From Clostridia bacterium (lineage in GTDB: Bacteria; Bacillota; Clostridia; Peptostreptococcales; Anaerovoracaceae), in NCBI GenBank assembly GCA_024684465.1, contig JAIKWW010000093.1, positions 1-43,460 of the forward strand: a stretch of DNA of 43,460 bases, in the 5' to 3' direction. Below, one piece after another: positions 13,292 to 19,376 of this stretch. Below the pieces are notes generated by a model. The model saw only the letters and a program-made list of their open reading frames with translations, ran no database searches and was not told the origin of the DNA. Each line of letters opens with the position of its first letter. Position 1 is the stretch's first letter. The position numbers and the translations under genes were made by a program.

Positions 13292-15787
13292 ATGGCAATA
13301 AGAGTATATGAACTCTCTAAGGAACTGAAGGTTTCAAATAAAGAACTTATTGAAAAAATGACAACATTAGGCATTCAGGTGAAGAGCCACATGAGCGTTC
13401 TCACGGATGCTGATACGGCGAAGGTGAGAGGCGCTTATGCGGGAGGCGGCGCGAAGGCGGCTGATGCAAAGGCTGCACAGAGCAAGCCGACGAAGCGCGA
13501 GGCAGCTCCGGCAGCAAAGGGCGGAAAGACTGCGGAAAAGCCTGCAGGCAGAGCACCTGAAAAGAAGGCGGCTCCGGCTGCTCATGGCGGAGAAAAGCGT
13601 CAGGCGAAGCCTGCAGACAAGCCGCAGGGCGGCCAGAAGCACAGAGCGGATGAGAAAGCCGGTGCTTCCAGGACCGGAGGCCAGCCTTCCAGAAATAACG
13701 GCCCTCAGCAGGGCAAAGGCGGAAATGACCGCAGGAGAGACGACAGACAGGGCAGAACTAATGCTGGTAACGGCGGTAAGCAGCGTCAGGAAAACAGAAA
13801 CAGAGGACACCAGGGACCGGGGGGCAGCAACAATCAGAATGGTCAGAACGGCGGCCAGAACAGAAATGAGCGCCGTGGCGGAAAGAACCAGAAAAACGGA
13901 CGCAATGACAACGGCCGTTCTTCAGTATTAAATATAGCCAAACCGCAGCACCACACAAAGAAGAAAGATGTCAGAAAAGAACAGCGTAAAGAGGCTGCCA
14001 AGCAGGCTGAACTGGAGGCAGAAGCTATTCCTGCAGGCGCTGTGGTAGTAAGTGTACCTATCACGGTGGCGGGTCTCGCTGAACAGATCGATGTATCCAC
14101 TTCCCAGCTCATCATGACACTTATGAAGATGGGAATCATGGCAAATATCAACCAGAACCTGGACGAGGATATCGTTCAGATCCTCGGTGAAGAACTTGGC
14201 AAGCAGATCATTATAGGAGAAGTTGAAGACGAGGCCAGTGAAGAGGGTATCGAGAACTTCGAGGACAAGGAAGAGGATCTCAAGCCTAGACCTCCTATTA
14301 TTACTGTAATGGGTCACGTTGACCACGGTAAGACTTCCCTGTTGGACAGGATCAGAAATACCAGCGTAACTTCCGGTGAATCCGGCGGTATCACTCAGCA
14401 CATCGGTGCATCTGAGATAAACTATAACGGTCAGCGCATCGTATTCCTGGATACTCCGGGACATGAGGCGTTTACTGCAATGCGTGCGAGAGGCGCATAT
14501 GTAACAGATATTGCGGTTCTGGTCGTAGCTGCGGATGACAGCGTTAAGCCTCAGACAATCGAGGCTATCAGCCATGCAAAGGCTGCAAATGTTCCTATTA
14601 TCGTGGCCATCAATAAGATGGATAAGCCGGGAGCAAATCCGGACCGCGTCAAGAAGGATCTGGCGGATCACAGTGTACTGGTCGAAGACTGGGGCGGTGA
14701 TGTCATCAGTGTTAACGTATCCGCAAAGACAGGAGACGGTATCGACAATCTGCTGGAAATGATCCTGCTGCAGGCAGAAATGCTGGAACTCAAGGCAAAT
14801 CCTGCGAGAATGGGTCTGGGTACTGTAGTTGAAGCCAGACTGGACAAGCAGAGAGGACCGGTTGCAACACTGCTGGTACAGAACGGAACTCTGAGAATCG
14901 GAAATGCAGTTGTTGCAGGTAACTGTTCCGGCCGTATCAAGGCTATGACAAACTACAAGGGCAAGCCACTCAAGAAGGCGGGTCCGGCAACTGCTGTTGA
15001 AATCCTCGGCATGGACGAAGTACCTGAAGCTGGTGACCAGTTCAATGTTGTAAAGTCAGACAAGATAGCAAGAGAGATCGCTGACAAGAGAAAAGAAAAG
15101 CAGAGGGAAGAAGTTCTCCAGAAGTCTGCAGGTGTAACGCTGGAACAGCTCTTCAGCCAGATCGAACAGGGCGAGGTCAAGGATCTGAACCTGGTCGTAA
15201 AGGCGGATGTACAGGGCTCAGTTGGTGCGCTGGTAACTTCACTGGAAAAGCTCTCCACGGAAAATGTTCAGGTAAAGATCGTTCACACCGGTGTGGGCGC
15301 TATCAACGAATCCGACGTCATGCTGGCCAGCACCACAGGCGCTATCATAATCGGATTCAATGTAAGACCGAGCGCGGCTGTAACTGCAGAGGCAAACCGT
15401 CAGAACGTGGAAATCAGAACATACAGAGTTATCTACGAGGCTCTCGAAGAAGTCGAGAACGCTATCAAGGGTATGCTGGATCCGGAATTCAAGGAAGAAG
15501 TCATCGGATCTGTTGAGGTCAGAGAGACTTTCAAGGTTCCGAATGTGGGAATGATCGCAGGTTCATACGTAATAGACGGCAAAATCGAGAGAAATGCAGA
15601 GGTCAGACTCATCCGTGACGGTATTGTCATTCACGAGGGCAAGGTTTCCTCCCTCCGCAGATTCAAAGACGACGTCAAGGAAGTTGCAAAGGGCTTTGAA
15701 TGCGGTGTAGGCATCGAAGATTACAACGATCTCAAGGTGGGAGATGTCATCGAAGCATTTAAGATGGTCGAAGTAGAACGTAAGTAA
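13292..15787 (+). CDS. infB: Translation initiation factor IF-2
   Basis: A GTPase that places initiator fMet-tRNA on the 30S subunit and promotes subunit joining. The 831 residues comprise an IF2-N domain ([17 protein letters not shown]), a long disordered linker (about 50-220, almost entirely Ala, Gly, Lys, Arg, Gln and Asn) and a second N-terminal subdomain. The G domain follows (GHVDHGKT at 341-348, [13 protein letters not shown]), then domains II-IV that bind fMet-tRNA. The start follows AGGAGGTG. The linker is why several spurious reading frames appear here. The rbfA-nrnA fusion begins 12 bases after the stop. Confidence 0.98.
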
Positions 15788-15799
15788 AGGGTGAGCGAT

Positions 15800-17374
15800 A
15801 TGGCAAAGAATCACAGACCTGAAAAGCTCGCAGGAGAGATCCGCCGCATTGTAGGTGAACTCCTCATCAGAGATCTGAAGGATCCACGGCTGCACGAGGG
15901 AATGGTCAGCATCACAGAGGTTGAGGTCAGCAATGACGGCAGCTACGCGACGCTATATATTTCGGCACTGAATACGAATACTGATCCGGAAGCTGCAGAA
16001 TCCTACAGGAAGGGCATCATCGATGCCTTCTCCAGTGCTTCCGGACATATCCGGAAGGAAATCGGAAAGAGAGTCAAGGTTCGCTTTGTACCGGAGCTCA
16101 GATTCAAATTCGACACTTCTCTGGACTATGCAGAGCATATGTCTGCTGTTCTGGACCGTCTCAAGGTATCCACCGGAGACGGGGAAGCATCGGCTGATGA
16201 TGAAGAAAGCCACATGGAAGCGGAACCTGCTGAAGATATCGATGCTCCGGAGGAATATGCAGAGTCAGTCGATGAGGTGAACGTTATGGCTGGAGCAGAT
16301 GACATATACTTTAAAAATTATGCTGAAAGATATCATTTTTCGCCAAATCCTGATTTTGACTATGACGTGAGACGAGAAGACATGCTGGCAGTCACCAATG
16401 AACTTCTCATGGCGGACAGCATTTACATCTTCCCGCATTATGTGGCAGACGGCGATGCCATCGGCTCGGCTTGTGCCATGTGCCGGGTTCTCAGAAAACT
16501 CGGAAAGCAGGCGGATATCCTGATGGAAGATGAAACTCCTGACGATCTGCAGTTCATGGACAAAGGCTACATAAAATTTGTTACGGAAGACGAAGAGTTG
16601 CCTCAGAGGGATCTTTCACTGGCTGTGGATTGCAGCAATGTGGACAGATTCCCGAAGAGAGAGAAGTTCTTCTTTAAAGCCGGAAAGCGCAACGCCTGCA
16701 TCGATCATCACACTTCAAATGACAACTTTGCTAACGTGAATCTGGTGGATCCGGGTGCTTCCGCCACTGCAGAGCTTCTCTACGAGCTCTTCAGTTTCAT
16801 GGGTGTTGAGCTCGACAAGGAAATCGGTGAAGCTTTATATGCCGGCATCGTAACAGATACCGGAAACTTCCAGTATACCAACACCACAAAGAAGACCCAT
16901 ATGATCACGGCGAAGCTCTACGATCTTGGCATAGATACAAAGACGGAGAATATCATTCTCTTCCAGAGCGAGAGAATGGAAAAGCTGAAACTCCATGCAA
17001 CCATAATGAACAACCTCACATCGTTCTGTGACGGAAGAGCAACCATGGCTTACGTTACGCTGGAAATGTATGAGGCCTGCAATGCCAAGACGTCCGAAAG
17101 CGACGGCATGAACGGCAAGCTCAGAGACATCAAAGGCGTCGAGGTTGCTGTGTTCATGAGAGAAAAGACACCTGACGAGGTCAAGGTGGGATTCAGAAGC
17201 AAGGACTACTTCGATGTTGCAAAGCTCTGCGAAAGGCTTGGCGGCGGCGGTCATGTCCATGCTGCGGGATGCACAGTCAAAAAAAACATGGAAGAGACAA
17301 TTCCTTTCATCAGAAAGATGGTGGAGGAAGAAATGGCGAAGTACGACGCTCGTCGCGGAATGAGTGAAGAATAA
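15800..17374 (+). CDS. RbfA-NrnA fusion: ribosome-binding factor A joined to DHH/DHHA1 phosphoesterase
   Basis: One uninterrupted 524-residue frame joins two proteins that are normally separate neighbours. Residues about 1-120 are RbfA, the cold-shock 30S maturation factor (HRPEKLAGEIRR, DLKDPRL, RVKVRFVPELRF, ending in an L-D-Y segment typical of the family). Residues about 121-185 form an acidic linker. Residues about 190-520 are NrnA, which degrades nano-RNA and pAp: DGDAIGSA (Asp217, Asp219), Asp277, the DHH box at 302-304, and the DHHA1 motif GGGGHVHAAG with His485. All catalytic residues appear intact. ATG 15800 follows AGGGTG and was preferred to an in-frame GTG at 15791. An in-frame ATG at 16286 with its own GAGGTGA site could give a separate NrnA of 362 residues. 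Confidence 0.9.
   Translation: MAKNHRPEKLAGEIRRIVGELLIRDLKDPRLHEGMVSITEVEVSNDGSYATLYISALNTNTDPEAAESYRKGIIDAFSSASGHIRKEIGKRVKVRFVPELRFKFDTSLDYAEHMSAVLDRLKVSTGDGEASADDEESHMEAEPAEDIDAPEEYAESVDEVNVMAGADDIYFKNYAERYHFSPNPDFDYDVRREDMLAVTNELLMADSIYIFPHYVADGDAIGSACAMCRVLRKLGKQADILMEDETPDDLQFMDKGYIKFVTEDEELPQRDLSLAVDCSNVDRFPKREKFFFKAGKRNACIDHHTSNDNFANVNLVDPGASATAELLYELFSFMGVELDKEIGEALYAGIVTDTGNFQYTNTTKKTHMITAKLYDLGIDTKTENIILFQSERMEKLKLHATIMNNLTSFCDGRATMAYVTLEMYEACNAKTSESDGMNGKLRDIKGVEVAVFMREKTPDEVKVGFRSKDYFDVAKLCERLGGGGHVHAAGCTVKKNMEETIPFIRKMVEEEMAKYDARRGMSEE
16274..16288 (+). promoter_or_regulatory. Internal ribosome binding site and start inside the rbfA-nrnA frame
   Basis: GAGGTGA at 16274-16280 lies five bases before an in-frame ATG at 16286 (codon 163 of the fusion), in the linker between the two domains. 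It looks like the remnant or still-active start of the ancestral nrnA gene. Confidence 0.5.
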
Positions 17375-17429
17375 TGGACGGAATTTGCCGGAGGCAAATA
17401 TCATTAATACAGAAAGGATGCATGAAACA

Positions 17430-18413
17430 GTGAACGGATTTATCAATCTGCTTAAACCTGCAGGCATGACATCTCACGATGCTGTCAATTCCGTCAGACG
17501 CATCATAGGAACAAAGAAAGTCGGACATACCGGGACTTTGGATCCAATGGCATCCGGAGTCCTTCCGATTTGTATAGGGCCGGCTACGAGGGCTGCAGAA
17601 TATCTCGAGGCAGATGTGAAGAGTTACCGCTGTGAGCTTCAGCTGGGCACGGTGACTGACACCGGAGATATCTGGGGGAATGTCCTGGAACGCAGGCCTG
17701 TGCCGGATGACCTGACAGAGGAGGATGTGAGAACTGCTCTTGAATCTATGCGGGGGGAGCAGTCTCAGTATCCGCCGATGTATTCAGCCATAAGAGTTAA
17801 CGGAAAGAGGCTTTACGAGTATGCCCGGAAGGGTGAAGAAGTAAAGGTTGAACCAAGACGGATTTTTATTTATGATATAAAGGTCGCAGGAGTATTCTAT
17901 GAGCCGGGTCGTGTCATGTTTGATGTAACCTGCTCAAAGGGAACTTATGTGAGGACTATCTGCACGGATCTGGGCAATGCACTGGGATGCGGAGCGGCAA
18001 TGTCCTGCCTCATACGTACGGGCAGCGGGCGTTTTGATATTTCCGATTCTGTGACGCTGGAAGAACTGCGGGAAGCTGCATGCAGGGATTCGGGGCTTTC
18101 CGGTGACGAAATCATGGCCACCAGGCGTGAAGGCGTAAGCGGCGGAGCTGTTTCGGAAATGATCATGCCTATGGACAGGATGCTCAGCGGATTCGGGAGC
18201 ATCGTTCTTTCGGATCCGGAGAAAATGAAATATTGCAACGGAGGAAAGATAGCGTTCAGGAATGCGTTGCGCAAGGCAGATAATACTATTGGAGAAGGAA
18301 ACAGATTCTCGGATCTGTATCTGGTTTACGGAGAGGACGGCGGATTCGTCGGGACAGCCGTGGCAGATGCCGGGAAAAGAATATATACGGTGGGCAAGGT
18401 ATTTGTAAGATGA
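17430..18413 (+). CDS. truB: tRNA pseudouridine-55 synthase TruB
   Basis: Converts uridine 55 in the T-loop of most tRNAs to pseudouridine. The N-terminal catalytic domain shows NLLKPAGMTSHDAV, GHTGTLDPMASGVL with catalytic Asp38, and CSKGTYVRTICTDLG. A less conserved PUA-like tail follows, with an insertion at about residues 215-250. The frame opens at GTG 17364, overlapping the previous gene, and ATG 17418 is also in frame. I chose GTG 17430 because the protein then begins MNGFINLLKP, as TruB usually does, and AAAGG lies 12 bases upstream. The exact start is uncertain. It gives 327 residues. The stop overlaps the ribF start by 4 bases. Confidence 0.93.
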   Translation: MNGFINLLKPAGMTSHDAVNSVRRIIGTKKVGHTGTLDPMASGVLPICIGPATRAAEYLEADVKSYRCELQLGTVTDTGDIWGNVLERRPVPDDLTEEDVRTALESMRGEQSQYPPMYSAIRVNGKRLYEYARKGEEVKVEPRRIFIYDIKVAGVFYEPGRVMFDVTCSKGTYVRTICTDLGNALGCGAAMSCLIRTGSGRFDISDSVTLEELREAACRDSGLSGDEIMATRREGVSGGAVSEMIMPMDRMLSGFGSIVLSDPEKMKYCNGGKIAFRNALRKADNTIGEGNRFSDLYLVYGEDGGFVGTAVADAGKRIYTVGKVFVR

Positions 18414-19347: not shown

Positions 19348-19376
19348 TTGACAAGGGATTGTGCAGGTAATATACT
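19348..19376 (+). promoter_or_regulatory. Strong sigma-A promoter for rpsO
   Basis: -35 TTGACA at 19348-19353, a 17-base spacer and -10 TATACT at 19371-19376. The predicted transcript starts near 19383, giving a leader of about 100 bases. Confidence 0.85.

Follow-up and report, generated by a model that had tools for sequence, protein, structure and literature searches.

RbfA binds the pre-30S subunit at the neck and the mRNA-channel exit; one structure shows its C-terminus directed at the 16S rRNA 5' end (reviewed in PMC9032327). NrnA of Bacillus subtilis cleaves RNAs that are 2-4 nucleotides long and acts inefficiently on pAp (PMC9757072); its catalytic residues are H20, D24, D26, D80, H103, H104 and D156, and NrnA relatives are reported to form dimers (PMC5593865). 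At standard enzyme amounts, no pAp phosphatase activity was detectable in purified NrnA-like proteins, B. subtilis NrnA among them; the B. subtilis enzyme released phosphate from pAp only when its amount was raised 10-100 times (PMC9757072). The NrnA and CnpB proteins assayed in that study were stand-alone and carried no other recognisable domains. In many Clostridia, rbfA and a gene for a DHH-type nanoRNase lie side by side.

We analysed a stretch of DNA of 43,460 nucleotides from a gut-type Clostridia genome, referred to here as the window, in which both proteins are encoded by a single uninterrupted frame running from ATG to TAA, with both parts complete (Table 1). An earlier note on this DNA had described RbfA and NrnA in one frame of 524 residues, and the open frame and the Pfam domains bear this out. 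The Pfam RBFA model matched residues 6-118 (102 bits, 1e-29, cut-off 34.7), and the RbfA model TIGR00082 scored 90.1 bits, above its cut-off of 51.15. The DHH and DHHA1 domains scored 75 and 52 bits, respectively, both above the Pfam cut-offs. An AlphaFold2 model of the fused protein, built on an alignment of the 18 fused sequences described below, predicted two separate folded domains and a disordered stretch (residues 109-177, pLDDT below 50). The linker between the RbfA and DHH domains was found to be acidic and disordered; the earlier note was right about its acidity and slightly short in its length, which is about 75-80 residues and not 65. We consider it quite probable that the locus is a true gene fusion giving a single protein of about 58 kDa whose domains each do their ordinary job.

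Table 1. Features of the fused gene and its neighbours (window positions).
Feature	Position	Strand	Basis or detail
Fused rbfA-nrnA gene	15800..17374	+	524 codons plus TAA, internal stops = 0
RbfA domain (KH-type 30S-binding factor), residues 1-122	15800..16165	+	PF02033, TIGR00082; A-x-G motif at 80-82
Acidic disordered linker, residues 123 to ~202, 30% D+E	16166..16405	+	composition; pLDDT
DHH catalytic domain, residues 208-350	16421..16849	+	PF01368; holds H213 D217 D219 D277 H303 H304
DHHA1 substrate-binding domain, residues 428-513	17081..17338	+	PF02272; GGGGH motif 481-485
Shine-Dalgarno-like GGGTGA, 5 nt ahead of rbfA-nrnA start	15789..15794	+	direct reading; duplex energy -6.9
Candidate internal ribosome-binding site and start, AGGTGA-N5-ATG, M163	16275..16288	+	duplex energy -9.9 kcal/mol
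infB, upstream neighbour	13292..15787	+	TIGR00487, 842 bits
truB, downstream neighbour	17421..18413	+	TIGR00431, 259 bits

The seven B. subtilis NrnA ligands correspond, in the order given above, to H213, D217, D219, D277, H303, H304 and D353 of the fused protein, the last being a metal ligand just past the DHH domain boundary. The earlier claim that all DHH/DHHA1 residues are intact thus held, and the metal ligands and the GGGGH motif were invariant across the 18 fused proteins. Since the NCBIfam NrnA equivalog model NF053633 gave 126 bits against a cut-off of 350, we name the second half an NrnA-type DHH/DHHA1 phosphodiesterase and not a strict NrnA. Its nearest solved relative, by fold and by sequence, was the Thermotoga maritima phosphodiesterase TM1595, structures of which have been solved with 5'-pApA and with AMP; the next-best structures were mycobacterial, Bacteroides, Staphylococcus and Bacillus enzymes.

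The fused gene occupies the place of rbfA in the usual operon, nusA-rnpM-ylxQ-infB-[rbfA-nrnA]-truB-ribF-rpsO-pnp. Neighbours were identified with NCBIfam models, the ylxQ match lying just under its cut-off, and rpsO was assigned from position and sequence. No terminator-like site was listed within the fused gene on the + strand. In the ribF/rpsO gap, at window positions 19348-19376, there is a near-consensus sigma-70 type promoter (TTGACA-17-TATACT, 11/12 matches). The fused copy was the only RbfA of the genome, and the whole protein had one match. The remaining DHHA1 proteins, judged by sequence or length, were an 889-aa frame of AlaRS length, RecJ and an AlaX-like protein, and no second copy of an RbfA or NrnA-type gene was found in this 84% complete genome.

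The assembly (2.06 Mb) is fragmented into 174 contigs and is the sole member of its genus in the sample, so the window junction has no check from any close genome. An assembly or sequencing artefact, for which a single base at the junction would be enough, as the case of G216 below illustrates, is nevertheless highly improbable: the same architecture recurs in separate assemblies from the nearest genus with fusions, as well as at 12 further loci, and almost up to M163 the linker has the character of an acidic tail.

The spread of the fusion was examined by searching 198 genomes of the family and by reading 130 loci, 129 from the family and one from another family. Uninterrupted rbfA-nrnA fusions were present at 18 of the 130 loci, a proportion that is no frequency because the family loci were picked partly for long open frames. 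The search for the two-domain architecture among relatives, suggested in the earlier note, therefore yielded 17 further fused loci. Linkers of 53-116 residues occurred in the window and at four loci of genus g22 (uncultured Clostridia metagenomes, one titled sheep duodenum), and linkers of 14-38 residues at a second set of twelve loci in eight genera; the single case outside the family was G216. At the other 112 loci the two genes were adjacent and separate, in agreement with the arrangement that had been described as usual. Close relatives with separate genes, which the earlier note had taken as a sign against the fusion, do occur (L005, L007 and L008), but other close relatives, the four g22 loci, are fused. 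In the 112 unfused loci, the nrnA frame relative to that of rbfA was +1 in 78, +2 in 23 and the same in 11; this strong +1 preference may reflect a standard overlap for coupled translation.

In wider samples, the short-linker type of fusion was rare: among the matches listed, it was uninterrupted in 1 of 381 genomes of the class (G216) and in 0 of 398 genomes of the phylum, and the other same-frame neighbour pairs contained at least one stop. The short-linker profile used there reports long-linker fusions, such as that of the window, only partially and would miss such cases. Eight long frames that contain NrnA and resembled fusions (G082, G281, G522, G588, G672, G759, G899 and G917) were rejected, since each has its RbfA in another frame. 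Long RbfA frames at L031 and L033 were also set aside, as their added N-terminal part did not match infB and resembles unrelated open sequence. Among the loci read, no infB-rbfA or nrnA-truB fusions were found.

A tree of RbfA plus NrnA from the 130 loci required three changes. The twelve-locus clade had a support of 99 and contained no unfused member, and one origin for all fused family proteins was rejected (AU p=6e-5). The grouping of the window with g22 was favoured (support 82 in this tree, 87/74 in another), while the alternative grouping of the window with the unfused L005 was not rejected (AU p 0.27, or 0.74 with fewer columns). A tree of infB plus truB required 5 changes; there, L041, a short and long-branched row, was placed away from its clade, and the grouping of the window with g22 had no resolution. 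A common linker of the window and g22, seen by eye as HFxP...R..DM, was dropped, since the alignment scores were mostly no better than those of shuffled linkers. These data point to at least two, perhaps three, lasting fusion events in the family, besides that of G216.

G216 differs from its genus-mate G372 by one base missing at the overlapping junction, which might be a very recent fusion, a sequencing error or a slippage site. Comparison of the two loci (L068 and L176) placed the missing base in the A-rich rbfA/nrnA overlap, with the TTG start and the upstream GGAAGAAGGA retained.

Unfused RbfA tails in the family were already acidic, with a median of 46% D+E, which explains the acidic linker without a special function; the linker is probably derived from the tail of RbfA itself. 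Across 693 linker codons there was no in-frame stop, against about 30 expected from composition (20.1 and 10.3 in the two groups), and the two other frames contained 14/39 and 10/8 stops in the two groups. The same architecture at 17 other loci together with the absence of linker stops excludes chance. Linkers varied between the groups in length and in charge. A strong internal start in the linker was absent in most other fused loci, and NrnA is therefore probably made there only within the fusion. Together with the invariant catalytic residues, this argues for production of the complete protein in working form. For the window, we infer that the whole fused protein is synthesized and that both halves are active. 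The retention of the fusion shows a need for the open frame; it is no proof that joining the domains helps.

The window linker does contain a candidate start at M163, which raises the possibility, tentative and on balance not likely, that one gene gives two products, the full fusion and a free NrnA of 362 aa. The M163 site was the strongest among the start codons of the window linker and exceeds most true nrnA starts in strength (their median is -6.05 kcal/mol), and MAFFT set it opposite the nrnA start of the unfused L005. However, 1.3% of background in-frame internal start codons reach -9.9, the linker offers several start codons, and the window has 2 sites of the AGGTGA-N5-ATG type where chance predicts 2.4. 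The junction similarity between the window locus (L001) and L005 was weak, 22 of 500 shuffles being equally good, and M163 lies some 15-20 residues farther upstream of the domain than L005 predicts. The rarity of a comparable site in the other fused loci also speaks against a second product. The site may have served as the nrnA start before the fusion, and its homology with the L005 start is suggestive only. Separately, L045, a fused member of the second clade, has a strong internal Shine-Dalgarno (GGAGG) ahead of an in-frame ATG in its linker.

Turning to the true fusion itself, rbfA and nrnA lie next to each other and often overlap in the family, and the single frame probably arose by loss of the stop or frame difference that had separated them, the acidic RbfA tail becoming a flexible linker. 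The RbfA domain would then bind the pre-30S subunit while RNAs of 2-4 nucleotides would be cleaved by the DHH/DHHA1 domain, with some 80 disordered residues leaving the enzyme free to act near the subunit or away from it. Two RbfA domains might also be brought together by dimerisation of the NrnA part. Stop-codon loss between neighbours had been offered in the earlier note as the plainer reading. Loss of a stop or of a frame difference does stand as the origin; it is not in competition with the fusion, which has been kept over long divergence in the relatives.

Whether the tether matters is a further question. One possibility is that it has a specific job, the nanoRNase on the assembling 30S subunit clearing the 2-4 nt pieces left by rRNA trimming or linking ribosome assembly with RNA decay. 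RbfA sits by the rRNA ends on the pre-30S subunit and the enzyme is attached at the RbfA C-terminus, which in one structure points to the 16S 5' end (PMC9032327), and fusion of exactly rbfA and nrnA recurs within the operon. Against this, linkers differing widely in length (14-116 residues) and in charge suggest that no fixed geometry is kept, operon neighbours also fuse without functional need, and nanoRNAs diffuse freely; we regard such a job as rather doubtful. The stronger proposal of a recurrently evolved, selected machine, in which RbfA tethers the nanoRNase at 30S assembly and couples maturation to fragment removal, appears unlikely. Clearance of pAp, also suggested in the earlier note, is unlikely as a role given the behaviour of NrnA-like proteins on pAp (PMC9757072).

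A neutral route, whose chances we judge to be even, is that of a ratchet, in which loss of the stop brought with it loss of the start signals of the second gene, so that the frame has to remain open even with the joining itself neutral. It is compatible with a true fusion and bears only on whether the tether matters. The genes were adjacent and often overlapping beforehand, G216 displays a one-base route, and start sites are weak in most other linkers. By itself, however, a ratchet gives no account of why just this operon pair fused in three lineages, a small sample.

Both parts of the protein are known. A literature search of openly accessible papers found no account of an RbfA-DHH fusion. 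Repeated fusion of this pair, with infB and truB unfused, is classical gene-fusion evidence for a functional or expression link, here of ribosome assembly to terminal RNA decay, and the fused loci are natural constructs for testing the assembly-decay link. Should the joining prove neutral, the fused loci still illustrate clearly that operon neighbours can merge and are then hard to part again.

With the RbfA family, the window protein shares the complete domain, scores above both curated cut-offs, the AxG motif and the usual position after infB; the difference lies in the C-terminal tail, which ends normally in the family and here runs on into a second enzyme. B. subtilis NrnA, T. maritima TM1595 and Mycobacterium tuberculosis CnpB/Rv2837c have both domains and all metal ligands in common with the window protein. 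These enzymes are stand-alone, whereas that of the window is fused to RbfA. In GdpP, as in the window protein, a DHH/DHHA1 unit is joined with further domains; there, the partners are membrane, PAS and GGDEF-like domains, not RbfA, and the substrate is c-di-AMP.
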